From: a virus
Strand: one strand, 5' to 3'
Virus record (IMG/VR): IMGVR_UViG_3300032236_000981
Location: 1 to 49,402 of that record
DNA: 49,402 nucleotides
Numbering within the stretch: position 1 is the first letter of the stretch; each line of letters opens with the position of its first letter. The position numbers and the translations under genes were made by a program. The notes beneath the pieces are model-generated. The model saw nothing but the letters and a program-made list of their open reading frames with translations. It was not told the origin of the DNA and did no database searches. Positions 8,337 through 49,080 of the stretch are shown piece after piece.

Positions 8337-8383
8337 TGTATATCTCCTTAGTATAAGGGCTGTTTGATGCCCTGTGTATTTTT

Positions 8384-8412
8384 ATTATATCACTTTAAAA
8401 CAATTTTGTCTA
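8384..8412 (-). promoter_or_regulatory. Sigma70/sigmaA-like promoter of the SSB-polymerase segment
   Basis: On the minus strand TAGACA (8407-8412) lies 17 bases upstream of TATAAT (8384-8389), immediately after the primase stop. This is one of the best consensus promoters in the window. The leader of about 40 bases contains an inverted repeat AGGGC/GCCCT (about 8354-8373) ahead of the Shine-Dalgarno. This could be a site for autogenous control of the SSB, but that is inference. Confidence 0.75.
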
Positions 8413-11695: not shown

Positions 11696-12204
11696 TCGGG
11701 TTGATTCCAGACTGGGATAAACTCCCCATTGTTGTTTTTAACATATAAAATGTTTTCTTTATTCATCATTGCTTCCAACTCTGCTCTTGATGGCATATCA
11801 CCTGGAGTAATCCCGCCGTCAATCCTTGGTCTTCCACGATGTACTGTTTTAAAAAAATCATGCATATCTCTTATGTCATCTTGACTCCAAAAATATTTTC
11901 CTGGAGTTTTATTTCCATTAAGAGAGTAAATTCTTTGAGGAAATCTTATGTCTCCTCTATAAAGATGCCATTTAATTGTATCTTCATGCTTTCCAATTAA
12001 TTGACATACCTCTTTGATGGAATAAGCGTATTGTTTATTTTTATTGACATCAGCCAAACTATAAGCAACACGCTTACCCAATTGGTAATCCCAAGCGATA
12101 ATTAAATCTTCTGCTCTGGAACGACGTAATACTTTGTGAAGCTTATTGTTTAGGTAGAAATACCGTAACCGTGCTGCACTATCTCTTCTCGCCTTGCGAT
12201 CCAT
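11689..12204 (-). CDS. MerR/HTH_17-like DNA-binding protein (171 aa)
   Basis: The centre of this 171-residue protein has a winged-helix or MerR-type HTH: YSIKEVCQLIGKHEDTIKWH around residues 60-80, followed by a wing-like loop and FWSQDDIRDMHDFF. The N-terminus is very basic (MDRKARRDSAARLRYF). The pattern of a SIKEV helix followed by a specificity helix and a W-S-x-x-D step is typical of the HTH_17 and MerR families. It could be a transcription regulator or a replication-origin binding protein next to the helicase. The preceding zinc-ribbon gene overlaps it by 55 bases. Confidence 0.72.
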   Translation of the reverse strand: MDRKARRDSAARLRYFYLNNKLHKVLRRSRAEDLIIAWDYQLGKRVAYSLADVNKNKQYAYSIKEVCQLIGKHEDTIKWHLYRGDIRFPQRIYSLNGNKTPGKYFWSQDDIRDMHDFFKTVHRGRPRIDGGITPGDMPSRAELEAMMNKENILYVKNNNGEFIPVWNQPEW

Positions 12205-12335
12205 GCACCAAACCTATTATCTCTTTTTATCATCCATCTTTTCCCACACATAACACAAAACAATTCAACTCGTAGGTTTTGGGAATAAACCCTATCAACG
12301 AATACTCGTCCTGTGCATTTTTTACAATTGAGCAT
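12150..12335 (-). CDS. Small zinc-ribbon protein (61 aa)
   Basis: The protein starts MLNCKKCTGRVFVDRV and has a second pair, FCVMCGKRW, so the CxxC...CxxC spacing is that of a treble-clef or rubredoxin-like zinc ribbon. The C-terminal part is basic. It overlaps the HTH gene by 55 bases in another frame, which is long, but both cysteine pairs are intact and the pattern is coherent. Zinc ribbons of this size in phages often bind DNA or RNA polymerase. Its partner is unknown. Confidence 0.65.
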   Translation of the reverse strand: MLNCKKCTGRVFVDRVYSQNLRVELFCVMCGKRWMIKRDNRFGAWIARREEIVQHGYGIST

Positions 12336-12350
12336 TATTCAATTATCTTG

Positions 12351-12647
12351 TTACTTAGCTGCCTTTGCAAGTGCCTTTTCAGCATCTGACTGTGCTGCTG
12401 CGACAACATTAGTAAGTACTGCTGCTTCTGGTGCAGACAAGTGCTCTTGCTTTGTTAGCTTTGCAACCAAACCACGTGGGTTAATCTTTGCAAGAACTGG
12501 ACCAATAACTCCATAGATTGCTGCAAATGCAACATGCTTTAGGTTATGGTTTGCTGATCCGCCACGCTGCCAAAGAATGACGGCTGCAGATGCAGTTGCA
12601 TATACGTAGTGCTCAACCAGAGTCTTCTCTGAGTTTGTGATCTTCAT
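12351..12647 (-). CDS. Putative small membrane protein, holin-like (98 aa)
   Basis: There are two weakly hydrophobic stretches, residues 12-27 (VYATASAAVILW) and 37-55 (LKHVAFAAIYGVIGPVLAKI), separated by a short charged loop with Gly-Gly, then an Ala-rich amphipathic C-terminus ending in KALAKAAK. Two-helix architecture with a charged tail is the general look of small holins. However, this gene is far from the endolysin, and a better holin candidate lies beside it. ATAAGGAGACAAA gives a good ribosome site. Other explanations include a membrane anchor for replication proteins. Confidence 0.5.
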   Translation of the reverse strand: MKITNSEKTLVEHYVYATASAAVILWQRGGSANHNLKHVAFAAIYGVIGPVLAKINPRGLVAKLTKQEHLSAPEAAVLTNVVAAAQSDAEKALAKAAK

Positions 12648-12656
12648 TTTGTCTCC

Positions 12657-13460
12657 TTATAGACTAAATAATTTTCCATCAACTACACAAGTGTAGTTAG
12701 GGGAAATTTCCACAATCTGTACGTGAGGATGTTGACCATTCTCAATATGTGCGATTGCGAAACCTTTTTGCCAGTTATGATTTTGAGTGTATTTCATTCC
12801 GTCACTCTTTTCATCACACATATGCCCAATCTCGTATCCACGGATTGTTCTTCCTCCCGTTGAAACTGGCAATTCATAAGTTTGAAAATGCGAAGCAATT
12901 CTGTGTGAATGTCCTCTGATTAAAGAGATTTGTAGATCATCAATATCTTTTCTTACTGCACCTGTGTCTGCAATTGAAAGTCCATGATGCACATGAATAT
13001 CCCCAAAACGGTGCTTAGGTAGTTCATTATAATAAATATAATCGTAACCAAGCGAGTCTAGGGACCATAAAGATTCTGGCGTTATATCACCTAAGTATTC
13101 TGGCATTTTTTTATCTAAATAATCAAAAATTCTAATATCATGATTTCCTAGTGCTGAAAATAACTGAGCGTTGGGAAGCATTTCTCTTGTTTTGGCATAA
13201 AAATCTCTTGCGCCTTTTGCTTCATGTCGCATCATAGGAACAATAAGATCTTTACTGTCATTTTTATGAAGCTGAAGAAATTCTGCAGAACGCCCCTCTG
13301 TATATTTACTATAACATGCCTGATCATCTGTATCTCCAAGGTAATCAACCACGTCTGGCTTCATCCACTTCATTACCTTAAACCACAATTCAATCGCTTT
13401 ATCATCTTGATATGGAAATTGCTGATCAGACGATAGCATCCACTTTAAGTCGTTAGTCAT
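12657..13460 (-). CDS. Calcineurin-like metallophosphoesterase
   Basis: The 267-residue protein carries the ordered motifs of the superfamily: D12 in SSDQQF (the usual DxH is DxQ here), D43 in YLGDTDD, the GNHD at residues 105-108 in ALGNHDIR, a later HVHHG, and the RGHSHR near residue 200. These ligands hold two metals that hydrolyse phosphoesters in nucleic acids, nucleotides or phosphoproteins. The Q in place of the first His may change metal use. It lies at the start of the replication side and has its own promoter. The substrate is not readable from sequence; DNA or RNA end processing is likely. Confidence 0.85.
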   Translation of the reverse strand: MTNDLKWMLSSDQQFPYQDDKAIELWFKVMKWMKPDVVDYLGDTDDQACYSKYTEGRSAEFLQLHKNDSKDLIVPMMRHEAKGARDFYAKTREMLPNAQLFSALGNHDIRIFDYLDKKMPEYLGDITPESLWSLDSLGYDYIYYNELPKHRFGDIHVHHGLSIADTGAVRKDIDDLQISLIRGHSHRIASHFQTYELPVSTGGRTIRGYEIGHMCDEKSDGMKYTQNHNWQKGFAIAHIENGQHPHVQIVEISPNYTCVVDGKLFSL

Positions 13461-13485
13461 ATAATCCTTTTTCTAGGTTTAGTCT

Positions 13486-13515
13486 ATTGTACTGCTATAT
13501 ATCATTATTTGTCAA
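13486..13515 (-). promoter_or_regulatory. Sigma70/sigmaA-like promoter of the replication side
   Basis: On the minus strand TTGACA (13510-13515, perfect -35) is followed after 18 bases by TACAAT (13486-13491). The leader is about 20 bases, with AAAGGA before the ATG at 13460. It lies just downstream of the HNH stop and is the first consensus promoter facing the phosphoesterase, zinc-ribbon and helicase genes, so it is probably the main early promoter of this block. Confidence 0.75.
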
Positions 13516-13772
13516 GCAACGTGTGCTTTATTATGTTCTGCTCTTGAACATAAAAATAGATTAATTAATCTATTATCTTGCTTATCTTTATTTATATGGT
13601 GAACAGTTTCCCATTCCCCCATTATTCTACCTATTTCTTTTTCTATAATAAGTCGGTGTTCATAATACCAACCCATAAAACTTTTTGGATGTTCTGGAAC
13701 TTTTACCAAAACATAGCCCTCACGACTAATTTTCCTATCTCTCTTTGTCCAAGTTTTGATAGGATCGTACAT
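13512..13772 (-). CDS. HNH endonuclease-like protein (86 aa)
   Basis: The ATG at 13772 shares one base with the preceding stop, which supports it over the upstream in-frame start at 13796. The 86-residue protein ends with an HNH motif: the VHHIN pair at residues 57-61, an Asn in DNRLINLF near 67-71, and the final His in RAEHNKAH. No zinc cysteine pairs frame the motif. Short free-standing HNH proteins in phages are either homing nucleases or packaging partners of terminase. This one lies between tail and replication genes, away from any terminase, so a homing-type origin is plausible. Confidence 0.82.
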   Translation of the reverse strand: MYDPIKTWTKRDRKISREGYVLVKVPEHPKSFMGWYYEHRLIIEKEIGRIMGEWETVHHINKDKQDNRLINLFLCSRAEHNKAHVA

Positions 13773-14161
13773 TATGCTGTTCCTATCGCAATCCAATAAA
13801 TTGCTCCAACGGCAACATTGGTTGAAAATGTTACCTGTGTATCATTTTGAGAACTTATCCAGCAGTAAGCTAGTGCTGATCCGCTTGGAGAATATGGAGT
13901 TGCAACAATTGAAGTAAGCTTAGTCATACCTGATATTGGCAATTTAACAACAAAAGATTTTGAAGTAGTTCCACTTGCTGGCTTTTGAATTCCGCCTGCT
14001 GTTTTTATAACTGATACAGACCCATCTCCATTTTTAGTTGATGCCAACCCATTAACCAAATTATTAATTGTTTGTTGCTGCAAATTAACTGCATTAATTA
14101 TTTGATTTATAATACTATAATCAATGACTGCGTTGTCTGTAGGTAATATTAAGCTTGTCAT
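13772..14161 (-). CDS. Probable virion protein, tail tip or fibre end (129 aa)
   Basis: The 129-residue protein has a helical N-terminus rich in Asn and Gln (INQIINAVNLQQQTINNLVN), suitable for a coiled-coil trimer. It is followed by a beta-rich, Ser/Thr-rich C-terminal domain that ends in a hydrophobic strand (AVGAIYWIAIGTA). This coil-then-beta plan is common in the last subunit of a phage fibre. It overlaps the preceding gene as ATGA. No enzyme motif is seen. Assignment is by composition and by its place at the end of the tail region. Confidence 0.5.
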   Translation of the reverse strand: MTSLILPTDNAVIDYSIINQIINAVNLQQQTINNLVNGLASTKNGDGSVSVIKTAGGIQKPASGTTSKSFVVKLPISGMTKLTSIVATPYSPSGSALAYCWISSQNDTQVTFSTNVAVGAIYWIAIGTA

Positions 14162-14550
14162 ATATTATCTCCTTCTTCATGAATAAGAACTTCTTTTTGT
14201 CCCGCCGTAATAATATCTGTATTAAGCCATTCTAGAACATCTGGATCAATTACATGACGACGCTTTGAATCACTTACTAGGTATATTTTACCATCAGAGA
14301 TGTCTTTTATCAAAGTCCCGTCCCTAAACCCTAGGGTTCCAGCAAGAGATATCTTGTTAATCTTTTCTTCTGAGGTTTTAATAACTGGCAGAGACCAAGA
14401 AAGCATTGCTCTCTCTGAAACAAACTTAAACTTTTTGTTTCCTTTAATATAAAAATAACCCTTTTCAGTATAAGCAATTAATCCACTTGGAACTGCAGGA
14501 TTATATATCTTAACAGTCTTTTTTTTCTTCAAGAAGTTTTGAATATTCAT
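14158..14550 (-). CDS. Hypothetical protein with cell-wall-type repeat (130 aa)
   Basis: The start is ATG at 14550, with AAAAGG upstream. The C-terminal half reads FRDGTLIKDISDGKIYLVSD then SKRRHVIDP. This resembles the short DGTLI...VYLV...GKKRPI repeat found in bacterial and phage cell-surface and wall-hydrolase proteins. The N-terminal half has a second similar unit (YNPAVPSGLIAYTEKGYFYI). It may bind peptidoglycan or surface polymers. It overlaps the coiled-coil gene before it by 41 bases and its N-terminus contains a poly-Lys run encoded by A8. The repeat is seen; the function is inferred. Confidence 0.55.
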   Translation of the reverse strand: MNIQNFLKKKKTVKIYNPAVPSGLIAYTEKGYFYIKGNKKFKFVSERAMLSWSLPVIKTSEEKINKISLAGTLGFRDGTLIKDISDGKIYLVSDSKRRHVIDPDVLEWLNTDIITAGQKEVLIHEEGDNI

Positions 14551-14692
14551 CAATAACCTTTTGCATTTCTACTATTTGATCTTGCTGTTGTGTAAATTCT
14601 GCTCTTAATACTGCATTCTGTGTTTCATATGTTGAAACAATTTCACCAATTCTTTGCTGCAAAGCAGTTATAATTAATTCAGCTTTATCCAT
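14510..14692 (-). CDS. Small coiled-coil protein (60 aa)
   Basis: The whole 60-residue product is a heptad-like helix (ALQQRIGEIVSTYETQNAVL then IVEMQKVIDEYSKLLEEKKD) with no other feature. The ATG at 14692 follows AAAAGGA and an extended -10 promoter. It may trimerise and serve as a stalk for the next gene product, with which it overlaps in an unusual way around an A8 run. No family was recognised. Confidence 0.6.
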   Translation of the reverse strand: MDKAELIITALQQRIGEIVSTYETQNAVLRAEFTQQQDQIVEMQKVIDEYSKLLEEKKDC

Positions 14693-14712
14693 TTTAATCC
14701 TTTTTTCATTTT

Positions 14713-14721
14713 ATTATACCA
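14713..14721 (-). promoter_or_regulatory. Extended -10 promoter
   Basis: The minus-strand TGGTATAAT follows the stop of the Cys-rich gene and precedes the coiled-coil gene, with the ATG at 14692. No clear -35 is seen, as expected for an extended -10 promoter. Confidence 0.55.
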
Positions 14722-14723
14722 CA

Positions 14724-14963
14724 CTACCACTTACCCATTGGGCATTTAGAAGACTCAATTTTTGTTTTTAATGTCATAAAACAACCACATTTTTTACATT
14801 GCTTAGTTAAATTAATTAATTCTGGACAAGATTTGCAAACATCAAATCTTTTATTAGAAATTTCATCATTAACTATTTTTTTTTCTGAATTTAAAATATC
14901 CCAGGGTCTGGAGTCTCCTAAATTAGCTTTGTATATTTCCCAAGCTGTTAAATCATTATCCAT
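14724..14963 (-). CDS. Cys-rich zinc-binding protein (79 aa)
   Basis: The C-terminal half has six cysteines in the pattern CKSC...CKKCGC...C (residues 42-76), ending in KCPMGKW. Zinc-binding modules of this shape are common in T4-like and actinobacterial phage proteins of unknown function. The N-terminus is a charged helix. It sits between tail genes and is probably expressed with them. It could fold as a small structural or regulatory unit; no reaction can be assigned. Confidence 0.65.
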   Translation of the reverse strand: MDNDLTAWEIYKANLGDSRPWDILNSEKKIVNDEISNKRFDVCKSCPELINLTKQCKKCGCFMTLKTKIESSKCPMGKW

Positions 14964-14979
14964 ATAAAACCTTTAACTA

Positions 14980-15273
14980 TTAAGAAACTAAAACAAATTT
15001 TGGATCACTGGAATATGCAGCAATCAACATTTTACCCATATCCGTACTATTTGAAACTGTTTGTGTTTTTACAACAACATCATTAATTAAATAATCAAAT
15101 GTTACTGAGTTAGCATCTGAACTTTTTACTATCATTTTTGGATCTTTTAAGTATATGTCAATTAAATCTTGATACTGATTTTTATCAACATAAAAAGACA
15201 AAACAAGATCTGATCCCACCATTAAATTAAAATTAACAGAATTAGATAATTGTGGTGGCAAAGCTGAAACCAT
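14980..15273 (-). CDS. Hypothetical protein (97 aa)
   Basis: The 97-residue product is rich in beta strands (NLMVGSDLVLSFYVD, TFDYLINDVVVKTQTV) with an acidic central turn. It has no cysteine and no membrane segment. It follows the Fn3-rich tail proteins and has its own extended -10 promoter and a clear AAAGGAGAAAC ribosome site. It may be a tail-associated or host-interaction protein, but no family was recognised. Confidence 0.6.
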   Translation of the reverse strand: MVSALPPQLSNSVNFNLMVGSDLVLSFYVDKNQYQDLIDIYLKDPKMIVKSSDANSVTFDYLINDVVVKTQTVSNSTDMGKMLIAAYSSDPKFVLVS

Positions 15274-37685: not shown

Positions 37686-38207
37686 TTATATGCTTGAAGC
37701 ACTGAGGAAAGCACCTTGCCATATACTTTGTTTTGGTTTTGTTTGACCCATTGGAGCTTCTACCCCAACGGACTTCTGAACTGCAGTAGCTGATTCAAAA
37801 GACTTGAGTTGATGATCAACATACTCAATCTTTCCGAACATGTCAGTTACTGACTTATTTAGTGCCTCATACTTTGTAACGAGATCTTCGTTTGACTTCT
37901 GCACATCCTCATATGCTTTTGACAAACGAGCCATTTCAGCTCTTGTTTCGTTTACAATGTTGTACATGTCCGCTACTGTTGCTGCGTGTGTAGCATAATT
38001 AGTATTGGACTTTTCTAGTGACTCACCAAAGAAGGTCTTAAGGTCTGAGACCATCTTCTCAAAATCATTTGCGTCTTCAACTTCAGAAATTTCTGCAGCC
38101 TTTTCAACTGTAGTATCTGGAGTTTCTGAAACAGCTGAAACTTCTTCGGCTGGAGTCTCTACATTAGCTGCAACTTCTGCAACTTCTGCGATTGTATCTT
38201 CTGCCAT
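37686..38207 (-). CDS. Nested scaffold protein from internal start (173 aa)
   Basis: An in-frame ATG at 38207 (MAEDTIAEVAEVAANVE) is preceded by a full AAGGAGGT six bases upstream (38214-38221), stronger than anything at the start of the full-length gene. It is flanked by a glycine hinge (NEGGNK). The product is an acidic helical protein (EDANDFEKMVSDLKTFFGES, then a long heptad region near 400-450 of the full protein), as scaffolds are. Lambda C/Nu3 uses the same nested layout. That both forms are made is inferred from the ribosome site. Confidence 0.75.
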   Translation of the reverse strand: MAEDTIAEVAEVAANVETPAEEVSAVSETPDTTVEKAAEISEVEDANDFEKMVSDLKTFFGESLEKSNTNYATHAATVADMYNIVNETRAEMARLSKAYEDVQKSNEDLVTKYEALNKSVTDMFGKIEYVDHQLKSFESATAVQKSVGVEAPMGQTKPKQSIWQGAFLSASSI

Positions 38208-39119
38208 TTTGTTACCTCCTTCGTTGAGCGAAATATCATCACTCTTTTTGATCCCGTCCGCAAACTGGATCTTTTGTTTTGTATTTTGATCAGGATAAAG
38301 ATTAATTGAAGCATTGCTATCAATTACATTACCTGCCAAACCTGGAGCTGCTGTCTCCGTTGCTTCATGTGCTGATGTTGGTGCATCATCTTTTTTAAAA
38401 TAAGAATCAATTATCTTTTCAATTGCTTCAAACTTTTCAACATCTGATTGTTCAACCCAACCAATATTTTCCATTTGTGCATCGCACACAACACAATCTT
38501 TTGTTGTTGTAGTTGATGTTGATGCAATTTCATCATTCTTGCACCAGAATACATTTTCAAGAACTACATCTTGAATCATTCCTTTTACAAATGTACTTCC
38601 ATCTGTATTTTTTTCAATAGAGAAAAAGTTTGCAAGTTGATTTGCTGGTGAATCTACTAATGATAGTTCATGTAGATCATAGTCATGAATAACTCTGCGA
38701 GTTTCTTCGTCCCCGTCAACTTTTTCCATCTTTGCATCATTAATGTTTCCACCAATTGAAAAACCTGAATAAGTACCATCTAGGCACTTCTCCCATGCGT
38801 CTTGTGCGCCCTTTGAGATATATGCAGTTACATAAACTCCGTTATAATTCTTTTGTGTTTCTGGATCAAAAAATGTATCATGTTTAAATTTAACCATTTT
38901 GCCAACCGCTGATGGTCCATGCATCTCACGTATATTTCCTCTGAATCTTTCAAAGGCTTTCTTATTTGCATCTGCTGTTACTACATCGCCGTGGCGATCA
39001 ACATTGTCTAGGGAAGCAAAGCCAGATACAAGACGCTTCTCTTTATCAACCTTTGTAATAGGGAAATGAAGCGATGTTGAATATTCGCTATTTTGCCAAT
39101 AAGTTTTTTGAATGTCCAT
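37686..39119 (-). CDS. Prohead protease fused to scaffold (477 aa)
   Basis: Residues 1-165 form an XkdF/S78-type prohead serine protease: SGFASLDNVDRHGDVV near the N-terminus, the His in REMHGPSAVGK, and the Ser in YSGFSIGG, followed by HELSLVDSPAN. Residues 170-300 are a linker with CVVCDA. The C-terminal 173 residues are acidic and coiled (residues about 305-477) like a scaffolding protein. The protease cuts the scaffold and capsid precursors during head maturation. The ATG at 39119 follows an extended -10 by ten bases without a ribosome site. A strong internal start at 38207 would make the scaffold part alone. Confidence 0.88.
   Translation of the reverse strand: MDIQKTYWQNSEYSTSLHFPITKVDKEKRLVSGFASLDNVDRHGDVVTADANKKAFERFRGNIREMHGPSAVGKMVKFKHDTFFDPETQKNYNGVYVTAYISKGAQDAWEKCLDGTYSGFSIGGNINDAKMEKVDGDEETRRVIHDYDLHELSLVDSPANQLANFFSIEKNTDGSTFVKGMIQDVVLENVFWCKNDEIASTSTTTTKDCVVCDAQMENIGWVEQSDVEKFEAIEKIIDSYFKKDDAPTSAHEATETAAPGLAGNVIDSNASINLYPDQNTKQKIQFADGIKKSDDISLNEGGNKMAEDTIAEVAEVAANVETPAEEVSAVSETPDTTVEKAAEISEVEDANDFEKMVSDLKTFFGESLEKSNTNYATHAATVADMYNIVNETRAEMARLSKAYEDVQKSNEDLVTKYEALNKSVTDMFGKIEYVDHQLKSFESATAVQKSVGVEAPMGQTKPKQSIWQGAFLSASSI
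38214..38221 (-). promoter_or_regulatory. Internal Shine-Dalgarno AAGGAGGT for nested scaffold
   Basis: This minus-strand AAGGAGGT is complementary to the 16S rRNA tail and lies six bases before the in-frame ATG at 38207. A chance match of this strength inside a gene next to a suitable ATG is unlikely. Confidence 0.8.
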
Positions 39120-40367: not shown

Positions 40368-41948
40368 TTAATTGCCTTCTTGTGGACCTTCGCCTTTTGC
40401 GTTACGAGCGGTACCCATTTTATCTGGTGCATTTAAAGTTCTATTTTGATCACGTGTTTTATTACCACTTGCATCAGACGCTGCGTCTTGTGCTACTTTA
40501 GGGTTGATAATTAAAACAGCATCACCACCTTCCAGTGGAGCCATTCCACGACGTGCACGAACTTCATTAGGAGTAATAACTTGATCCTTAAGATAACGAT
40601 CATCAATACGAGATTGTGTTTCTTCATCTGTAAGTGCAAGTTCATTAAATCTCAAAACAAATGCATCAGTAAATTCCTTGATAATAAGATTAATCTTAAA
40701 CTCAAGCTCTTCTTGTCTTGGACGACATACTTGCTCTTTAAATGTTTTATCTGCATCTTTAGCATTTGCCAACGATACATTAGCTGGCATACCTAGTTTT
40801 GAAACTGGTACACGATGTGAAAGAAGAATACGATCTCTATTTTCTACAGCATAGTTTCTGAATGAAGAATCTTGAATTCCCGCTTCAATTGGCTCCATAT
40901 TAAATTCAACACGACCTTGTTCACCATCTGATGGAAGTGGAATATAAAGGGTTCTATGGTTTCTACCTTTGAGTCCAGTTTGGAAGAACTCAAGCAATTT
41001 ACGCTCTGAATCTGCAGTAAGCTTTGCACCCTTTACTGTAATAATGTAACGTGGAACTGCTTTATTTTCAAAGTAGTCTAAATTAAAACGTTGTGCAAAT
41101 TCATCTCCAGCAACTGCGTTCTTTGCTGATAGTACGTCTGGGACGCCATAATAGGTATTTGACGGAGTAAATACCTTAAAGTGAATTACTTCATTTGGCT
41201 GTGGATCTGTTCCAATTTGATCTGGAGTTTCTGTATCCCCGAAGTTTCTAAAGAAGGTGTAACGGTTATAAACAACTTGTACAAAACCATCACGGTGACG
41301 ACGAATACGCATTGTTGTGGTTGGAATATGCCCAACATAACCGATCTTGCCTGTTGATGTACGACCAACTTCCATATAAGCATTTCCAGTTGATTCTAGG
41401 TCAATGAATATTTTTTTCATTGTTTCTGTAAATGAATCATCTGAATTAAGTGACTCTAAAAATGATCTTAGGTCTTCTTTAAGCCCTTCAATTTTTGAAC
41501 GCAACTTGTCAAGAGACTTTGGCTTATCCATAACGCCTTCAATTTTAGCTGTTGTTTTCCATGTGTTTTCAAACTTGTATCCAAGTCCTACTACGTTTGC
41601 AGCCTTAGCATTTACAGCAGAGTGATGATATGGAGATACATCATAAAGTTGTGCTAAATAAAGAATGTTATATGGTGGTTGAACAATTTGAAAAAGAGAA
41701 TATCCTGTAAGATCAAGAGGATCAAGTTTTTTAGATTTTGCGTCTCCAACACCAGTGAATGATTTTTCAAGTCTATTTACTTGACGACGAAAATTAGGAC
41801 TTAGCCCTTCTGATTTTTTAATATCTTCCCATGTAGCATTAAATGGATCACCAAAATCATTTTCTACAGTATGGACTGGGTTATCAGTTTTTACAACAAT
41901 CCCGCCTTCATCTTCATCAAAACTATCATCAACTATTAAATTAGCCAA
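40368..41948 (-). CDS. Portal protein (526 aa)
   Basis: The 526-residue protein has the layout of an HK97/SPP1-type portal: an N-terminal wing, the LYLAQLYDVSPYHHSAVNAK stretch in which portals usually carry conserved aromatics, a stem-like helix region (KLTADSERKLLEFFQTGLKG), and a C-terminal crown ending in an Arg/Asn-rich tail. It builds the dodecamer at the DNA entry vertex. The start is TTG at 41948, overlapping the previous gene by eight bases and preceded by GAGGGAGATG. The following genes are lysis rather than protease. Confidence 0.88.
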   Translation of the reverse strand: MANLIVDDSFDEDEGGIVVKTDNPVHTVENDFGDPFNATWEDIKKSEGLSPNFRRQVNRLEKSFTGVGDAKSKKLDPLDLTGYSLFQIVQPPYNILYLAQLYDVSPYHHSAVNAKAANVVGLGYKFENTWKTTAKIEGVMDKPKSLDKLRSKIEGLKEDLRSFLESLNSDDSFTETMKKIFIDLESTGNAYMEVGRTSTGKIGYVGHIPTTTMRIRRHRDGFVQVVYNRYTFFRNFGDTETPDQIGTDPQPNEVIHFKVFTPSNTYYGVPDVLSAKNAVAGDEFAQRFNLDYFENKAVPRYIITVKGAKLTADSERKLLEFFQTGLKGRNHRTLYIPLPSDGEQGRVEFNMEPIEAGIQDSSFRNYAVENRDRILLSHRVPVSKLGMPANVSLANAKDADKTFKEQVCRPRQEELEFKINLIIKEFTDAFVLRFNELALTDEETQSRIDDRYLKDQVITPNEVRARRGMAPLEGGDAVLIINPKVAQDAASDASGNKTRDQNRTLNAPDKMGTARNAKGEGPQEGN

Positions 41949-42288
41949 GCTTCATCTCCCTCATCTCTTTAACATAATCCATCATTGCGGGGAGATCTTT
42001 TTCATCTGGAACTAATCCCATTTCTAATCTCTGTCTTTGCTCCGCTAATTCTTCGTCTGTTACTGGTCTATGCCCAGACATAAAAAGTGGTTTTCCTTCT
42101 TCTAGTCCGTAATGAGCTGCTGCATCTTTAAGCTTTTTAATCTGCCTAATATCGCCTTTTATGGACGGAATACTTAAATAAGCACCTTCTTCATCCATAA
42201 CAACTTTACCATCTGGCATTTGCCAAACATACAATCCCCAATTTACTTCTTCAACTGGTGTCATTCTCATAGGACTTACTGGTTTCAT
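41941..42288 (-). CDS. Hypothetical protein upstream of portal (115 aa)
   Basis: The product has a beta-rich start (NWGLYVWQMPDGKVVMDEEG) and a helical, acidic and Met-rich end (DLPAMMDYVKEMREMKLG). It is encoded directly before portal with an overlap, where actinobacterial siphoviruses often have a small conserved protein of unknown function. A terminase or packaging accessory role is possible by position. It is expressed from a putative leaderless promoter. Confidence 0.65.
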   Translation of the reverse strand: MKPVSPMRMTPVEEVNWGLYVWQMPDGKVVMDEEGAYLSIPSIKGDIRQIKKLKDAAAHYGLEEGKPLFMSGHRPVTDEELAEQRQRLEMGLVPDEKDLPAMMDYVKEMREMKLG

Positions 42289-42338: not shown

Positions 42339-44315
42339 TTATTGATTATTCTTATAAAATAGAACCGCTTGGCCATTATTTAACTGTGTAGATGAACCAT
42401 GGTATTCCATAATTTGGCCTATAGACGATATTGAAGAACCTATTGATGTTATGCTGTTGCCAGAGACAACGAAGTTATCATTTGCTATTGATGTAACCAC
42501 AGATATAAATGAAAGATATCTATTTTGAACCTGTGACTGAGTTAATGCATTTGGATATAAGGTGATATACCCATAACTTGCTTCTGATGGCACCTTAGAA
42601 ATATCAGCAGAACCATTCAACAAAATATCATTTGAGCTTGATGCTGGATATACCATAATAATATGATATACCTCACCATCTATAATCGTAATTGGAGAAG
42701 AGTTCCTGTTTATTCCATTGACATATAAGGTTGAGCCAGGTATTGTATTTTGAAGCATATTATTGCTATCTATATGAAGATCTGCATATCCTGGTATTGT
42801 TTCTATAACTGCTGATCCCGTCCCTTCATATCTCATCCAAAATTCTACAGATTGATAAGAAGATTGTGTAAGCTTAGAAATAATTGCATATCCTGGATTA
42901 GATCCTGGATCTTGAGGGGCAAATTTTATACCTAAATTATTACTTCTTCCCAAAATATTATTTGTATCTTTTTTCATCATATATGTAGTGCTGGATGCTG
43001 GGTAAATTTCAAATAGGCCAGAATCCGATATTTCATTAATAGCAGAATAAACTACTATATTTAAATTATCTATTCTTGGTTGATTTTTTAATGATGTATC
43101 TGGTGAAGCAATTGTTACTCTAATAAGACAACTTGCTCCAAATAAAGATCCGTAACTAGACAAGAAATATGGGAAAGCTTTTCCATTTTTAATACTATAA
43201 AATGTTGTACCACCATCATATGAAACATCAACAGTCACATATTTACTTGACATTATTGAATCATATGCACCAGTATCCCAAGATACCTCAATTCCAGAAA
43301 AATTGGAGTACGAAACCATTGATAATGGATATATCCAAGTTCCTACGTTTGGAGCAGAATAAGTTGTTTGCGCTAATGTTAAACCAGTTTTATCTGATAT
43401 AAGGTTTGAAAAAGTACCTGAATTATAAAGAGAATTACTTGTAAACTTTTTAGAAAACACAGTTTTACCTGAAGTATTATCAAATGAAAAATGAGAAACA
43501 TCTGTTTGATTTGAATAATTTGTTGGATCTGAATCTTTTGCTGCCCAGAACATATGGTTTCTTATTTCATTAATTGAAAGTTTTCTATCATATATTGCTA
43601 CCCCATTTATAATAAAATAAGAACTTGCAGTTGCTGGTCCTATACGAAATCTTGTTCTTTCAGAATCTGAATAAAATTTATAATTTGACGGGATTAAAAC
43701 TGATTCATCCGTTATACCATTTACAGATATACTCATGGATAAGTCTTTAATTGATGCAAATACGTGTATTGGTTGATCCCATGAAAATATTTGCTTTTGA
43801 GTTGTTATTGACAACCCGCCCTGAAAATATACAGTAAAGTACAAGATATCATTATTTGCATATATTTGCATTCTTGTATTTGGCCCAGAATGTAGGTCCA
43901 TAATATTAGATTGACCATTTATAGATCCTGGCATCAGGATCCAAAATTCTAACCCGAAAGTTTTATGCTCTTGCCCCTGTTGAAAAACATTGTATAAGTT
44001 TAAAGCTTCTATTCCTACATTTGTATTAATTCTGCAACCATTATATTGTGTATCATAATTTGAATGGCTTATAATTGATGTAATGTCTTGAAAATTTGGG
44101 GATCCCAAAGTATATGCACCATGATTGCCATATCCAGATGAATCTATAATATTTTTTGATCCAACTTCTTGCAAATATGTACTTTCGTTATCTAAATATT
44201 CTTGATATGTAGCATACTCAAGTAAAATTGTTGCATATGTTCTTTGTGTTGAAGCACCATCAAGCATCCATAATGATAATGGATTATCTCTTAATACTGC
44301 TTGTTTGTAAGACAT
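42339..44315 (-). CDS. LamG-like / concanavalin-fold virion protein (658 aa)
   Basis: The 658-residue beta-rich protein contains at least two laminin-G or concanavalin-A-like lectin domains. The first spans residues about 55-255 (GLEFWILMPGSINGQSNIMD, then RKLSINEIRNHMFW). The second is near 430-600 (SVEFWMRYEGTGSAVIETIP, then GEVYHIIMVYPASS). Between them lies a galactose-binding-like segment (TYSAPNVGTWIYPLSMVSYS). Such domains bind sugars or proteins on capsids and tails. It follows the collagen-like gene by 11 bases, so the two are probably expressed together as surface fibres or decoration. No catalytic signature is seen. Confidence 0.7.
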   Translation of the reverse strand: MSYKQAVLRDNPLSLWMLDGASTQRTYATILLEYATYQEYLDNESTYLQEVGSKNIIDSSGYGNHGAYTLGSPNFQDITSIISHSNYDTQYNGCRINTNVGIEALNLYNVFQQGQEHKTFGLEFWILMPGSINGQSNIMDLHSGPNTRMQIYANNDILYFTVYFQGGLSITTQKQIFSWDQPIHVFASIKDLSMSISVNGITDESVLIPSNYKFYSDSERTRFRIGPATASSYFIINGVAIYDRKLSINEIRNHMFWAAKDSDPTNYSNQTDVSHFSFDNTSGKTVFSKKFTSNSLYNSGTFSNLISDKTGLTLAQTTYSAPNVGTWIYPLSMVSYSNFSGIEVSWDTGAYDSIMSSKYVTVDVSYDGGTTFYSIKNGKAFPYFLSSYGSLFGASCLIRVTIASPDTSLKNQPRIDNLNIVVYSAINEISDSGLFEIYPASSTTYMMKKDTNNILGRSNNLGIKFAPQDPGSNPGYAIISKLTQSSYQSVEFWMRYEGTGSAVIETIPGYADLHIDSNNMLQNTIPGSTLYVNGINRNSSPITIIDGEVYHIIMVYPASSSNDILLNGSADISKVPSEASYGYITLYPNALTQSQVQNRYLSFISVVTSIANDNFVVSGNSITSIGSSISSIGQIMEYHGSSTQLNNGQAVLFYKNNQ

Positions 44316-44326
44316 TTATCTTACCC

Positions 44327-45595
44327 CTATATAATCGTTTTTAAGAACTTTATTGTTGCATTTGTAGTTGCAGCATCTGTTATAGTTACCTGAACTATTA
44401 AGTTCCCGCCAGATGTACTGGATGAAATATTAATTCCAGACATTAGACCATTTGTTTCTATAACTGCATACTCTGTGCTGTCTACTACTGAGCCATCTGT
44501 TTGAATTAAAAATTTAGATGTTCTTATTTTTGAACCCTGAACAATTGAAATTCTATATTCTGCCGATGTAAAGCTTGATAGCGGTACTGTATCTATTGTT
44601 GATATTGAATTTGATGATAAAGAAAATGTTCCATTTATTCCGCCAGCTGCTCCTGCTGGACCCTGTATACCTTGTGCAGCATATAAGCCATTTAAACCTT
44701 GTATTCCTTGCAATCCTTGAATACCCTGAAACCCTTGAAGACCTTGTGAACCCTGTAAACCTTGAGTGCCTTGTAGTCCTTGCAAACCCTGTAAACCTTG
44801 AATACCCTGAGCACCTGTGCCAGCTGCTATAGTAAATTGAATTGAATCTGTTCCTATTCTAATGGCTCCATCTGAATTAGAACCATTTGCATATTGAACC
44901 CAAGTTGTGTTGGCATATGTTGTTCCGCTAAGAACAAAAATATAATCTCCATTTTCAACTTGTCCTAGTATGTGATTATTGTAATCTGTAGAGCGAGTAA
45001 GTTGCCAATGAACCGAACTGGTTCCTAATGTTGTTACTGTATAAATTCCATTTTCTATTGCATTTGCACGATTTTTAACAAGTACACGATCATTTAATAA
45101 CCATGTATATCCATCAGTTACAGCAACTCCAAAATTATTACTTGTAATAGTTGCACCTACGCCAGTTCCACTTTCTGCATCTGCAGTTCCTGACGAATAT
45201 GTGGCATTAATAAAATCAACAGATGTTGCAGTATTTACTGCTGCGTGTGCATTTTGTTTTCCAGCCTGTCCCATTGTTCCTTGTACACCCTGTGTACCTT
45301 GCAAGCCTTGTAAGCCTTGAATTCCTTGTAATCCCTGCACACCCTGTGTACCTTGAAATCCAAGTAAGCCTTGAATTCCTTGTGCCCCTTGTACGCCTTG
45401 TAAACCCTGTAAACCTTGAATGCCTTGAATACCTAGTAAACCTTGTATGCCCTGTAAACCCTGAATACCTTGAGGTCCTCTATTTGTTGTTAAATAATTA
45501 TCAATTTCAGAGGCCAAAGCATAGATATCCCTTGGAACGTCGGGAGTATCTGTATATTGCGGGTAGGAAAAACCCTTGCTGGTAAATTGGCTCAT
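44327..45595 (-). CDS. Collagen-like fibre protein (422 aa)
   Basis: There is an N-terminal helical cap (residues about 1-38), then a collagen-like run of about 25 Gly-X-Y triplets (residues about 40-114, 45478-45254). A beta-rich globular domain follows (about 120-255), then a second collagen run (about 260-318, 44820-44640), and a beta-strand-rich trimer-like end. X is mostly Ile, Leu or Val and Y is mostly Gln, with almost no Pro. Gly-X-Y triple helices form trimeric fibres. The promoter sits immediately before the ATG with no ribosome site. It is likely a virion appendage for surface attachment; glycosyl genes lie next to it. Confidence 0.82.
   Translation of the reverse strand: MSQFTSKGFSYPQYTDTPDVPRDIYALASEIDNYLTTNRGPQGIQGLQGIQGLLGIQGIQGLQGLQGVQGAQGIQGLLGFQGTQGVQGLQGIQGLQGLQGTQGVQGTMGQAGKQNAHAAVNTATSVDFINATYSSGTADAESGTGVGATITSNNFGVAVTDGYTWLLNDRVLVKNRANAIENGIYTVTTLGTSSVHWQLTRSTDYNNHILGQVENGDYIFVLSGTTYANTTWVQYANGSNSDGAIRIGTDSIQFTIAAGTGAQGIQGLQGLQGLQGTQGLQGSQGLQGFQGIQGLQGIQGLNGLYAAQGIQGPAGAAGGINGTFSLSSNSISTIDTVPLSSFTSAEYRISIVQGSKIRTSKFLIQTDGSVVDSTEYAVIETNGLMSGINISSSTSGGNLIVQVTITDAATTNATIKFLKTII
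44640..44820 (-). repeat. Second Gly-X-Gln collagen-like repeat block
   Basis: Degenerate nine-base units on the minus strand, of the form GGN-(ATT/TTA/CTT/GTA)-CAA or CAG, encode about 19 triplets. The DNA-level degeneracy keeps a very uniform Gly-hydrophobic-Gln protein pattern. Confidence 0.8.
45254..45478 (-). repeat. First Gly-X-Gln collagen-like repeat block
   Basis: About 25 nine-base units encode GIQ, GLQ, GVQ, GTQ, GAQ or GFQ, with one GLL-type break, GPQ at the start and GTM at the end. It is the longer of the two blocks in the fibre protein. Confidence 0.8.
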
Positions 45596-45603
45596 ATGCT
45601 ATA

Positions 45604-45612
45604 AGTATACCA
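45604..45612 (-). promoter_or_regulatory. Extended -10 promoter, near-leaderless (collagen-like gene)
   Basis: The minus-strand TGGTATACT ends eight bases before the ATG at 45595. No Shine-Dalgarno lies between, so the mRNA must start at or within a base or two of the start codon. Confidence 0.5.
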
Positions 45613-45643
45613 AAATAACAAATAAAAGCATTTATTTTGCCCC

Positions 45644-46216
45644 TTAAAACGTGATATTTGGATCCATTTGCTTAATATTGTGCTGTACTAACATCCTATA
45701 GCTTTCTGGTATATCAATTGTAATAAGATATTTAAATATTGACATAGATTCTTCTTTCCTACCCAGCCCCCAGCCACTTACTGCTTTTTCAAACAATAAG
45801 GCAAATTCTCCAGGGTACTGAACATCGGCTGGTAATGGTTCGTTATTTTTTGAATGCAACAACCCAAGTTCTGAAAACATATAGCATTCTTGCCATTTAT
45901 TTAACCATTCATAATACCTAGCCAACAAAAAATATGCCTCTGGTCTTTTGGGCAAATATTGAATTGCTTGCATTAAAGAGTTTTTTACAGTATGCTTTCT
46001 TCCATCTTGATCAGATATGCATTCTGCTATTTTTAATAGAGAGGTATAAACATAAATTGGGTTTTTATCATATCCATACTCTGCACATCTTAAATAAAAA
46101 GATGTTGCAGAAGCTGTTTGCCCCATCTCATGATATTTTAAACCAATGTTAAAATTTAAAATTGGATTAAACATATCATGGGAAGCAGATTCAATTAAAT
46201 CTTCAATTAGTTCCAT
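45644..46216 (-). CDS. TPR-like repeat protein (190 aa)
   Basis: The 190-residue protein is built of helix pairs with the tetratricopeptide spacing: FNIGLKYHEMGQTASATSFY at about 22-42 (A/G at the helix contact positions), YFLLARYYEWLNKWQECYMF near 95-115, and a last pair that includes ALLFEKAVSGWGLGRKEESM. TPR arrays join proteins in a complex, and in glycosylation loci they are often fused or linked to glycosyltransferases. It overlaps the beta-propeller gene before it by 14 bases, so it is coupled to the sugar-processing genes. Confidence 0.75.
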   Translation of the reverse strand: MELIEDLIESASHDMFNPILNFNIGLKYHEMGQTASATSFYLRCAEYGYDKNPIYVYTSLLKIAECISDQDGRKHTVKNSLMQAIQYLPKRPEAYFLLARYYEWLNKWQECYMFSELGLLHSKNNEPLPADVQYPGEFALLFEKAVSGWGLGRKEESMSIFKYLITIDIPESYRMLVQHNIKQMDPNITF

Positions 46217-47213
46217 AAGAGAGTGCTTCCTTTATCATTTCATCAACTATCTTTTTAGGAGTTTTTAATATAAATGCTGCATTGTCTTGAAAACCAAAAG
46301 ATATAAGCAGATCGTTTTTAAATTTTGCAGCACCCGCAACAAATTCAATTTTGGCATCCAGGAAAGAAAATGGCGACGGGCTAATTCCTATTAGTTTAAA
46401 ATTTTTATCCCATACAACAACTCTATGTCTATATATGCCATCTTTTTGATTTAAATAATTAAAATAAGATATTGTTTCATGAACAATAGCAATATAATAT
46501 TTGCCCCAATTAATTACTTGAGATCCCCCTCTTAAATCAATTGAAGATTCTAATCCTTGCTTAACAAAAATTTGTTCACATTTTGCTGGTAAATCTAAAG
46601 ATGTTTTTACAAGCTCTGTTGGTGATGTCCATTTTACATAATGATATGGTTTATCTAAAACTGGCATCCAATTTTTTTCACAATACGAATCATTATTATT
46701 TGGTGCTGGTATCCTAAATCTTTTAACTTCTTTTACTGTCCAGGAATCTCTGTCTATCTCAATCTCAGAAAGTTCCATTCTTCCTTGACCATCTGGCGTT
46801 GTATCTCTTCTTACACCCGAAATATAATACTTTTCCTCCCATTTAAATAACCTAGCATCTTCTAGGCCTACAAAATCCCAAAGGGGACGGGAATCAAGCA
46901 TCTCAGTATCTATCAAAGAAAAATTTATTATTTTAAAATTTTTATCAAGTCTCATCAAATAATTAGTAGTTACAAGTCTTAAATCTTTTTCTGGATGTAA
47001 ATATGCCAATGGTCCCCAAACTGAAGGGAATTTTTGTGTATTTTCAGAATGATATAGTGTATAGTTAACATGTCTTAAAACAACTAATATATCTTCATTG
47101 TCATCTATAAATACGGAGGGATTCATTAATCCCGTCCCATTTGTTAAACCTTTAGATATAGTTAATGGAATCAATCTTCCGCCATCTAAAACAGATTTTT
47201 GAACTAAGTTCAC
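46203..47213 (-). CDS. GH130/GH43-like beta-propeller protein (336 aa)
   Basis: The 336-residue protein has the five-bladed propeller pattern of families 130, 43 and 32: a first blade with LMNPSVFIDDNEDILVVLR, the central signature VGLEDARLFKWEEKYYIS near residue 115 (the E-D-A/P-R of these enzymes), then the NWMPV segment and RGGSQVINWGKYYIAIVHE near residue 240. GH130 enzymes phosphorolyse mannosides, and others transfer or hydrolyse sugars. Here it lies between two glycosyltransferases and the TPR gene, so sugar trimming or donor synthesis for glycosylation is a plausible role. The propeller pattern is visible; catalysis is not proven. Confidence 0.78.
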   Translation of the reverse strand: MNLVQKSVLDGGRLIPLTISKGLTNGTGLMNPSVFIDDNEDILVVLRHVNYTLYHSENTQKFPSVWGPLAYLHPEKDLRLVTTNYLMRLDKNFKIINFSLIDTEMLDSRPLWDFVGLEDARLFKWEEKYYISGVRRDTTPDGQGRMELSEIEIDRDSWTVKEVKRFRIPAPNNNDSYCEKNWMPVLDKPYHYVKWTSPTELVKTSLDLPAKCEQIFVKQGLESSIDLRGGSQVINWGKYYIAIVHETISYFNYLNQKDGIYRHRVVVWDKNFKLIGISPSPFSFLDAKIEFVAGAAKFKNDLLISFGFQDNAAFILKTPKKIVDEMIKEALSYGTN

Positions 47214-47947
47214 GGATTTAATGTACCTACAAATTCGTATGAACCTACATGAGTTGTTTTTGCATATGGTGCAGCATAGACTTTATTTCCTAATTCCCGC
47301 CACATATAGCAAAAATTAACATCTTCGCCCATCCATTTGCCATCTTTATCTATATTGGTGTTCCAAAATTCATAGATTTTGTCTCCAGGATTTATTCCTA
47401 GTACTCCAGTGCCTGTATAGGTATATGATCTAACTGAAGGTTTTAACTTTTCAAATACAGATTTATGGATTATCATCATTCCCGTCCCAATATGGGAGAC
47501 TTCAAATGATTTTGTAAAATCTTCTGGCTGTTCTTGATCTGGCAATAATGCAAGATTAAATTCCCCGCTAAATTTACATAGCATTTCGGCGGGAACTCCA
47601 TGTTGAACTGCTTGAGATATAGACTCCCAATTTATTCTTTTTTTAGGAACTACTCCACCAATAATATCTTTACCTTCATTAATCATTCTTAAAACATCTT
47701 CTGGTTTAAATGATTGATCTGCATCTATAAAGAATAAGTAGTCACAACCTGAATTAAGAAACATTTGAGTAAATAAATCTCTTGCTTCAGTAATAATAGA
47801 ATTATTATACATATCTCTATATTGAACTTCATAACCTTTATCTAGAAGGAACTTCATAGTATTAAATACACTTTTAGCATATGATCCATGACACATACCG
47901 CCATACATTGGCGTAGCTATAAATACTGATTTAGGTTTCTTTGCCAT
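47210..47947 (-). CDS. Glycosyltransferase, GT-A fold (245 aa)
   Basis: The N-terminal strand KSVFIATPMYGGMCHGSYAK, the DxD-type motif FIDADQSF near residue 75, and the acceptor-site region GEDVNFCYMWRE near 210 mark a GT-A glycosyltransferase resembling family 2 and its phage relatives. These use a nucleotide sugar and a divalent metal held by DxD. It overlaps the propeller gene as ATGA and shares a base with the second glycosyltransferase. The target may be the neighbouring collagen-like fibre, another virion protein, or cell-wall or DNA; sequence alone does not decide. Confidence 0.85.
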   Translation of the reverse strand: MAKKPKSVFIATPMYGGMCHGSYAKSVFNTMKFLLDKGYEVQYRDMYNNSIITEARDLFTQMFLNSGCDYLFFIDADQSFKPEDVLRMINEGKDIIGGVVPKKRINWESISQAVQHGVPAEMLCKFSGEFNLALLPDQEQPEDFTKSFEVSHIGTGMMIIHKSVFEKLKPSVRSYTYTGTGVLGINPGDKIYEFWNTNIDKDGKWMGEDVNFCYMWRELGNKVYAAPYAKTTHVGSYEFVGTLNP

Positions 47948-48657
47948 TATATCTTCTGCTTAAAATTAGTAGGTTGAGTCATTTGTCTAATATGATCCCA
48001 AGAGATAGGTTGTTTTTTCATATGTGTTACTAGTGTATCTGGAATGAAATACAATTCAATTCCCGCCCGAAATGCCTTAACACACCACGAAATATCTTCT
48101 CCAACAGCATCTATAAGATCTGTGCCATCTGGTTTTTCTCCAACTTTTACATATTCATGAGAAAACCAAGGTCTTTGAATTTTTTCAAATACACCCGATT
48201 TCATAGCAACAAATCCAAACCCAAGGCTTTGAACTTTTATTGGATCTTTTAATTTAACTATGTCTGTTGCAGGCATTCCACCTGGTGCTCCCCATGCATG
48301 AATTGTTGTGGTAAATCCATCTGCAAGTAGATAGCATCCAGTTGCCACATCGTATTCTGAATCATAAATTTTAAAAAATTGTTCTGAGGTCCAAGAAATA
48401 TCTGAATCAATCCAAAATATTTTATTATAACTTATATCATTTCCACCTGGACTAATTTGGGCGGGATCTAAATTAAGCCCTTCAACCCCACTTGCAGTTA
48501 ATTCTCTAGCATGATGTACTAAAGATGAATAGCTATTTAACCACTTATAAGTTAAACCACGCTTATTTAATTCTGTTAACGTTAATACTAGACTTTTTAC
48601 ATATTGTGCTTCTAGCATGGCACCTGGTGTTGCAATTAAAACATCATAATGTTTCAT
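47947..48657 (-). CDS. Glycosyltransferase, GT-A fold (236 aa)
   Basis: A paralogue-like companion of the next gene: YDVLIATPGAMLEAQYVKSL at the N-terminus, the DxD motif FWIDSDISW near residue 85, and GEDISWCVKAFRAG near residue 200, the same three blocks in the same order. Two different GT-A enzymes in a row suggest a disaccharide or stepwise glycan. Transcription should come from a strong promoter that overlaps the terminator upstream. The target is not visible in the sequence. Confidence 0.85.
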   Translation of the reverse strand: MKHYDVLIATPGAMLEAQYVKSLVLTLTELNKRGLTYKWLNSYSSLVHHARELTASGVEGLNLDPAQISPGGNDISYNKIFWIDSDISWTSEQFFKIYDSEYDVATGCYLLADGFTTTIHAWGAPGGMPATDIVKLKDPIKVQSLGFGFVAMKSGVFEKIQRPWFSHEYVKVGEKPDGTDLIDAVGEDISWCVKAFRAGIELYFIPDTLVTHMKKQPISWDHIRQMTQPTNFKQKI

Positions 48658-48679: not shown

Positions 48680-48708
48680 ATAATACCAAATAGGGGTTGG
48701 TATGTCAA
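48680..48708 (-). promoter_or_regulatory. Strong promoter with -35 inside a terminator stem
   Basis: The minus-strand TTGACA (48703-48708, consensus) is followed after 17 bases by TATTAT (48680-48685), itself preceded by TGG. The -35 lies in the downstream half of the terminator hairpin. It drives the glycosyltransferase operon. Confidence 0.75.
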
Positions 48709-48717
48709 CCCCTATTT
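48688..48717 (-). terminator. Rho-independent terminator, bidirectional type
   Basis: A perfect 12-pair inverted repeat AAATAGGGGTTG-6-CAACCCCTATTT is flanked by A and T runs. It follows the 114-residue gene's stop at 48736 and precedes the glycosyltransferase gene. Confidence 0.85.
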
Positions 48718-48735: not shown

Positions 48736-49080
48736 TTATGTATGCATTGATTTAAAGATTGCATCAAGTGCTTCTTGTGCACTTTGACGATCTTCTGGTG
48801 TTGTAGCATCTTGAATAGCTTTTTGTGCATCTTCAATAGCTTTTAACTGTTCTGCAGTTGGTTTAGGAGCACCAGTTTCTCCTGGATGATTTGGTGCATA
48901 TGGAGCAGCATCATCTGTAATTGATGCAATATAAAGATTTGCCCATGTTTCTGCTTCTGCAGCATCTGCCCATTGATCTCCACCAGGCCAATTTGGTTGA
49001 TAGAGGGATGGTGCTGTAAAATCATCATAAAATATCTTTACAGCATTTGTTCCTTCTTCTATTTCATATCTTACTGACAT
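48736..49080 (-). CDS. Hypothetical acidic protein (114 aa)
   Basis: The first 60 residues have beta strands and aromatic and proline-rich stretches (DFTAPSLYQPNWPGGDQWAD). The rest is acidic and helical, rich in Ala (KAIEDAQKAIQDATTPEDRQ). This resembles small virion or chaperone-type proteins, but no family is recognised. A good AAGGAGAAT ribosome site, an extended -10 promoter before it and a strong terminator after it make it a single-gene transcription unit, which suggests abundant expression. Confidence 0.7.
   Translation of the reverse strand: MSVRYEIEEGTNAVKIFYDDFTAPSLYQPNWPGGDQWADAAEAETWANLYIASITDDAAPYAPNHPGETGAPKPTAEQLKAIEDAQKAIQDATTPEDRQSAQEALDAIFKSMHT

Follow-up and report, generated by a model that had tools for sequence, protein, structure and literature searches.

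A propeller–TPR gene pair of aquatic tailed phages as a candidate glycosylation cassette for an adjacent collagen-like fibre

A GH130/GT108-type propeller protein (PROP) and a TPR protein are encoded by a near-invariant gene pair in aquatic tailed phages, and this pair is the conserved core of the region described here. In the lineage of the freshwater phage analysed, it is followed by the gene of a collagen-like fibre (COL), giving a conserved three-gene order, PROP-TPR-COL. On balance, we favour the reading that PROP-TPR is a mobile cassette for the glycosylation of virion appendages, most likely acting on the adjacent collagen-like fibre. The window, i.e., the whole stretch of DNA analysed, is an IMG/VR virus record of 49,402 bases with ORFs extending past both edges. 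Its minus strand carries, in order, the end of fibre A, O114, GT2b, GT2a, PROP, TPR, COL, LAM, P115, and the portal (Table 1).

Table 1. Coordinates of the features of the window considered in this work.
Feature	Positions	Strand	Basis
Fibre A (putative fibre; large upstream protein), C-terminal end, cut by the contig edge	49117..49401	-	C-terminus common to relatives
O114, small protein, partner of GT2b	48736..49080	-	Near GT2b in most close GT2b relatives
Hairpin AAATAGGGGTTGACATACCAACCCCTATTT with overlapping promoter-like site TTGACA-17-TATTAT	48680..48717	-	Promoter-like match
GT2b, GT-A glycosyltransferase, PHROG 1574	47947..48657	-	Model and invariant residues
GT2a, second PHROG 1574 protein	47210..47947	-	Predicted GT-A by homology
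PROP, GH130/GT108-type propeller	46203..47213	-	Model and invariant active-site residues
TPR protein	45644..46216	-	Near-constant neighbour of PROP; overlap of 14 nt
COL, collagen-like fibre, N-terminus KGFSYPQYTDTPDVPRDIYALASEID	44327..45595	-	Pfam Collagen, PHROG tail fibre
LAM, LamG-like protein	42339..44315	-	Pfam Laminin_G_3; LAM-P115-portal block
P115 and portal, lineage markers downstream of the variable region	40368..42288	-	PHROG portal matches

A sequence-only reading of this region had proposed that the two transferases, the propeller, the TPR protein, the fibre, and the LamG-like protein form one glycosylation system, the first four being coupled by gene overlaps. Such overlaps do link GT2b to GT2a (1 nt), GT2a to PROP (4 nt), and PROP to TPR (14 nt). 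COL begins 48 nt past TPR without any overlap. LAM begins 11 nt beyond COL and lies outside the span 44327–48657 to which that reading was attached. The TTGACA-17-TATTAT site within the hairpin before GT2b is the best promoter-like match of the region (11/12, with TG before the −10 element); the total number of promoter-like matches was not above that in shuffled sequences. Because such sites are not commoner than in shuffles, a single operon running from this site through GT2b to TPR is only a suggestion. Upstream, fibre A ends in ...KFARLVSDGYNWIITIAN, the C-terminus of the ORFs of 569–749 aa that precede O114-GT2b in relatives, while O114 itself gave no match in Pfam and PHROG searches. The cytidylyltransferase that had been placed at the left edge is a fragment of 49 aa, and the PHROG that it matches best is that of an HldE-type heptose-phosphate adenylyltransferase, a cytidyltransferase PHROG coming second. 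Nothing links this fragment to the module, and its supposed role as a supplier of a precursor was dropped.

By sequence, PROP scores 16.0 bits against the Pfam GH130 model (PF04041), below the cut-off of 26. A further search gave no GH130 match at E 0.001, and a sequence-only PDB search with PROP returned nothing useful. An AlphaFold model built from 37 sequences (pLDDT 86.7), by comparison, has the five-bladed propeller fold of GH130, as had been supposed from the sequence. The solved structures that it matches best are those of GH130 mannoside phosphorylases, with Z scores of 24.1 (PDB 5ay9) and 24.0 (PDB 9gph) over 272–280 residues. The Leishmania MPT enzymes (PDB 6q4w, 6q4x, and 6q50), which we take to be GT108 members, share the GH130-like propeller and match the PROP fold at Z 17.4–18.0. 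Some of them are GDP-Man-dependent mannosyltransferases according to their PDB titles, although they are protozoan rather than viral and score Z 18 as compared with 24 for GH130. The modelled fold of PROP is thus compatible with GT108-type nucleotide-sugar (GDP-Man) transfer.

The residues N31, R47, E118, D119, R121, K180, K194, R228, H245, and D310 are invariant in 73/73 aligned PROP relatives. Through a weak profile alignment (E about 0.0009) combined with fold similarity, which makes the residue mapping approximate, N31, R47, E118-D119, and D310 fall onto N74, R89, E141-D142, and D363 of BT3780, i.e., its mannose-binding and catalytic residues (PMC4599007). The GH130 catalytic Asp in its E-D-x-R motif accordingly has a counterpart in E118-D119-x-R121, and the Asn and Asp of the −1 subsite have theirs in N31 and D310; on this mapping, the mannose-site residues are kept in all the relatives. 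Two glutamates of BT3780 have been proposed as the catalytic base (PMC4599007). At the approximately mapped positions, PROP has K194-W-T-S and R228 and no Glu, R228 aligning near one of the two. Thus, PROP shares its fold and the mannose-subsite Asn, Arg, Glu-Asp, and Asp with GH130 mannoside phosphorylases and β-mannosidases (PMC4599007), but differs in its low identity (10–14%), on the approximate mapping in the base glutamates, and in being a viral gene fixed beside a TPR gene. Since the hydrolase bases seem to be replaced, PROP is more likely to be a transferase or a phosphorylase than a hydrolase, and our inference is that it does not belong to the hydrolases of GH130 type. Sequence alone cannot tell a phosphorylase from a nucleotide-sugar transferase. 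PROP could accordingly trim or salvage mannosides as a phosphorylase or a glycosidase, for receptor degradation or energy supply, instead of being a transferase. This would suit its closest folds, which are mannoside phosphorylases at Z 22–24 as opposed to Z 18 for the GT108-type enzymes, and R228 and H245 may occupy the places of the phosphate-binding basic residues. Nevertheless, we regard it as rather improbable, as PROP is nearly always paired with TPR and often lies near biosynthetic sugar enzymes, and, for a glycosidase, the base glutamates have no counterpart in the approximate alignment.

The pairing was examined in two scans of viral contigs. The first, with PROP, gave at least 596 confirmed stretches; the second started from the PROP homologue of cyanophage DSL-LC02, and the matches listed for it are likewise a minimum. 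TPR adjoins or follows PROP in all 80 of the best loci of those at least 596, with an overlap in nearly all, and it adjoins PROP in 66 of the 76 loci left after dereplication at 85%. TPR Pfam models match the window's TPR protein below their cut-off and a fused relative above it. Indeed, the TPR protein exceeds 330 aa in 55/75 dereplicated loci, and the long forms carry, in the cases examined, a fused methyltransferase of FkbM type or Methyltransf_24. Between otherwise different phages, PROP-TPR retains 60–70% identity. Among 84,980 cellular genomes, only five had a PROP match, all on MAG or bin contigs of 3–18 kb, one of which (L085) has the phage order O114-GT2b-GT2a-PROP-TPR. For these reasons, the five matches are probably misbinned phage, and a cellular origin of the pair was rejected.

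PROP-TPR is often located among tail-fibre genes, and it adjoins tail genes in marine and freshwater cyanophages. In Synechococcus phage DSL-LC02, it lies within a tail-fibre cluster with a collagen-like protein alongside, and in cyanophage S-SCSM2R, where its members are annotated as 'MGP protein' and 'CcmH/NrfG', it adjoins a baseplate gene. Methyltransferases, GT25, GT-A, or epimerase genes occur within two genes of the pair in 19/56 loci, as compared with 9% of other positions in the same loci. DNA glycosylation, a known role of phage glycosyltransferases, is another conceivable purpose of the sugar enzymes. We consider that role highly improbable here: the genes are positioned among tail-fibre genes, and the window and seven relatives, most of them partial contigs, contain neither a match to the thymidylate-synthase/hydroxymethylase family nor a Tet/JBP match above cut-off, the one sub-threshold Tet/JBP match being in a contig without PROP. 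The open-access literature, which cannot prove the cassette undescribed, yielded no description of phage GH130/GT108 enzymes or of a propeller–TPR phage cassette.

COL matches Pfam Collagen at 69.9 bits, above the cut-off, as well as PHROG tail fibres. Its association with the pair was counted in dereplicated contigs sharing the window's portal, with pairs located near the portal and by whole-contig searches (three contig groups). A collagen ORF is present in 11/12 contigs with PROP and in 2/14 without it (Fisher p = 2e-4), and in 7/7 and 1/6, respectively, of 13 contigs most of which could be read over most of their length (p = 0.005); the contigs are fragmentary and related to each other, so these p-values overstate independence and are indicative. 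The sole contig among the 13 that has collagen but not PROP begins within a collagen ORF. In most PROP-containing contigs of the lineage, COL directly follows TPR. The fibres found there have a common N-terminus of the type KGFxYPxYTDTPDVPRDIxxLAxxID but dissimilar collagen parts. Among 21 ORFs with this N-terminus, drawn from a set of loci biased towards PROP, 19 stand directly after TPR; the remaining two come a few genes later, behind PROP-TPR-FkbM. Owing to this bias, an independent scan with COL carries weight: the relatives sharing the N-terminus (L401, L402, L441, L462, and L464) follow TPR, while those alike only in the collagen repeats rarely do so. That a glycosylation-type enzyme together with a TPR protein is tied to a collagen-like fibre, as had been proposed, is thus upheld, through the conserved gene order and the co-occurrence within one lineage.

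Strong in the window's lineage, the link is modest across all phages, because collagen lies within two genes of the pair in only 18/56 dereplicated loci, as compared with 15% expected; L112 and L182 have the pair with no collagen adjoining it. A chance neighbourhood, in which mobile morons merely share a permissive hypervariable region and are functionally unlinked to the fibre genes, would account for the strong mosaicism of the region and for the fact that GT2b-GT2a, PROP-TPR, and COL are each found without the others. It would hardly account for the N-terminus common to the fibres after TPR or for the co-occurrence bias, which extends to whole loci (collagen anywhere in the locus in 48/76 for PROP and 0/55 for distant GT2b relatives), and it is in our judgement very unlikely. 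As a possible mark of glycosylation, the Thr content of collagen close to the pair was compared and is not clearly higher (0.60 vs. 0.56 per triplet), and the collagen repeats of the window are Thr-poor, with 0.1 Thr per triplet.

A precedent for this arrangement exists in Clostridioides difficile, where SgtA, a GT-A enzyme with TPRs, glycosylates Thr in the collagen repeats of BclA3 and is encoded immediately upstream of the collagen-like bclA3 gene (PMC7157674). The window and its relatives likewise have a sugar enzyme and TPR immediately upstream of a collagen-like gene. However, SgtA is a single GT-A/TPR polypeptide that attaches O-GlcNAc on the spore surface without a GH130-type propeller, whereas the present TPR protein has its own gene, its partner is a propeller, and the case is a predicted virion one. 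In mycobacteriophages, glycosyltransferases with an O-methyltransferase gene alongside glycosylate the capsid and tail tube (Freeman et al. 2023, as cited in PMC11600133 and PMC12619734). As far as the citing papers relate, this system resembles ours in having phage sugar enzymes beside a methyltransferase gene but differs in its acceptors, and their accounts describe no propeller–TPR pair or collagen fibre. In the favoured reading, the overlapping PROP and TPR genes would be translationally coupled and their products made together. PROP would transfer or process a sugar, with mannose or a similar hexose as the likeliest one. TPR, which in many phages is joined to a methyltransferase of FkbM or class I type, would present the protein acceptor, binding the fibre perhaps at its common N-terminus. 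The likeliest acceptor would be the collagen-like fibre encoded next to the pair; in phages that have no collagen gene there, a different appendage protein would take its place. PROP, alone or together with a methyltransferase, would put the sugar on the fibre before assembly. The benefit may be altered adsorption or shielding.

The enzymes might instead remodel a surface glycan of the host (wall polysaccharide, LPS, or capsule), e.g., to block superinfection or aid progeny release, their place among fibre genes then reflecting a shared host-interaction island. Such a view has been taken of phage glycosyltransferases encoded in fibre islands (PMC7029224), and here the hypervariable region upstream of the portal exchanges its fibre genes together with modification genes. 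Yet the proteins show no evident membrane segment (the highest 19-residue hydropathy is 1.26), and no recurring flippase-type partner was seen; judged by hydropathy only, the flippase and membrane-bound glycosyltransferase of GtrABC-type O-antigen conversion are not apparent. The PROP-TPR-COL order, the single fibre N-terminus, and the TPR–methyltransferase fusions better suit a protein substrate. We therefore consider host-glycan remodelling unlikely, though it and the phosphorylase role are the chief rivals, and retain appendage glycosylation as the preferred reading. A bolder proposal, which we put forward only tentatively, is that PROP founds a phage-specific family of propeller glycosyltransferases, guided by TPR proteins to collagen-like and other fibres and exchanged horizontally as a general coating among many lineages of aquatic tailed phages. 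The spread of the pair and its identity between otherwise different phages suggest strong, general selection. If it sugar-coats fibres, a large share of aquatic phages would carry glycoprotein appendages, which would matter for adsorption, for host range, and for how fast host-recognition regions turn over. A function for PHROG 1574 and for the propeller family is indicated as well, and whether phage collagen-like fibres are glycoproteins becomes directly testable.

The two proteins of PHROG 1574 ('unknown function'; E = 3.6e-35 for GT2a), GT2b and GT2a, form a different unit. GT2 Pfam models match them below cut-off, but the model of GT2b (pLDDT 93.1) has a GT-A fold, with A197 of the archaeal virus STIV as the first match (Z 18.9), followed by LH3, Mnn9, mimivirus R699, and COLGALT1. 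D84xD86, E187-D188, and the C-terminal H212 are invariant in 34 sequences, GT2a included; D84 and D86 would form the metal-binding DxD of a GT-A enzyme, and E187 and D188 its conserved ED. GT2a aligns to GT2b with the DxD, ED, and H retained and is predicted by homology to be a GT-A enzyme as well, in agreement with the two such enzymes recognised earlier. The collagen-modifying group of LH3, mimivirus R699, and COLGALT1 follows STIV A197 among the best fold matches at Z 17–15; as identity to these GT-A proteins is 8–22% and matched domains, e.g., that of LH3, may be non-catalytic, this likeness of the model does not show a common substrate.

O114 lies near GT2b in most close relatives of the latter, in two gene orders, and is the usual companion of GT2b whether or not GT2a is present. 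L114–L116, L140, and L169 have the order large protein-O114-GT2b-GT2a-P115-portal, and no PROP, TPR, or collagen was seen there; the 73-kb contig of L140 lacks both a collagen ORF and PROP. GT2a and GT2b thus occur in relatives without the fibre, an outcome that the sequence-only reading had itself set against its proposal, and since the pair is found with neither PROP nor collagen, the six genes were rejected as one unit. GT2b, GT2a, and O114 are therefore a module separate from PROP-TPR. The window is not alone in combining the two modules, because L182 and the MAG contig L085 also carry O114-GT2b-GT2a-PROP-TPR. In the window phage, O114-GT2b-GT2a would be a second, separable sugar module joined to the pair, and its GT-A enzymes may have a protein encoded nearby, either fibre A or O114, as their substrate or may lengthen the glycan.

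The window's portal is 51–54% identical to those of Streptomyces Stanwilliamsviridae, which would make this phage, judged by that protein, a relative of the Streptomyces phages of this family. In these Streptomyces relatives, neither the pair nor the fibre is annotated before the portal. Among contigs with portals 83–95% identical to that of the window, LAM-P115-portal is common to most, whereas everything upstream differs. LAM matches Pfam Laminin_G_3 at 31.1 bits, above the cut-off, and accompanies P115-portal in most contigs of the lineage; in Stanwilliamsviridae Streptomyces phages, a large hypothetical protein, placed as LAM is here, and a P115-sized protein precede the portal. LAM, which had been counted with the glycosylation genes, was accordingly removed from the module and belongs to the LAM-P115-portal block (head operon).

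The two neighbouring genes GT2a and GT2b belong to PHROG 1574, which is frequent among cyanophages and labelled as of unknown function in the database; this family can now be annotated as a GT-A glycosyltransferase. The similarity of the portal and capsid protease to those of Streptomyces Stanwilliamsviridae places the contig, as judged from these two sequences, near that group, which makes an actinobacterial host probable.

Features of the window and of the compared loci
Feature	Locus	Coordinates	Observation
HldE-type nucleotidyltransferase-like fragment	window	1–147	49 aa, left edge
Capsid protease	window	37686–39119	about 42% identity to Streptomyces Stanwilliamsviridae
Portal	window	40368–41948	51–54% identity to Streptomyces Stanwilliamsviridae
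PHROG 1574 genes	window	47210–48657	
PROP-TPR	L017	1343–2341 (−); 8001–9011 (+)	divergent copies
PROP-TPR	L081 (S-SCSM2R)	11998–14830	
TPR fusion	L082 (DSL-LC02)	12959–15112	
GT25 glycosyltransferase	L073	9439–10170	
ATP-grasp enzyme	L068	8643–9473	

The pair formed by the GH130/GT108-type propeller gene (PROP) and its TPR neighbour occurs twice, in opposite orientation, on a single contig (L017). In Synechococcus phage DSL-LC02, the TPR protein is part of a fusion that also carries a radical-SAM domain alongside an FkbM methyltransferase. In cyanophage S-SCSM2R, PROP and TPR were deposited as “MGP protein” and “CcmH/NrfG”, respectively, names that are probably misleading. In L058–L080, PROP, TPR, and a methyltransferase are followed by a GT25 glycosyltransferase, which a collagen fibre on the opposite strand faces; collagen galactosyltransferases belong to the GT25 family. 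An ATP-grasp enzyme lies downstream of TPR within the cassette of some loci (L060, L066, and L068). In relatives, kinase-nucleotidyltransferase genes (cluster c18) are also close to fibre regions. Finally, a 3.7-kb contig (L085, CAIRTF010000180.1) in a bacterial MAG displays the phage order O114 (a small gene)-GT2b-GT2a-PROP-TPR and is probably a misbinned phage fragment.
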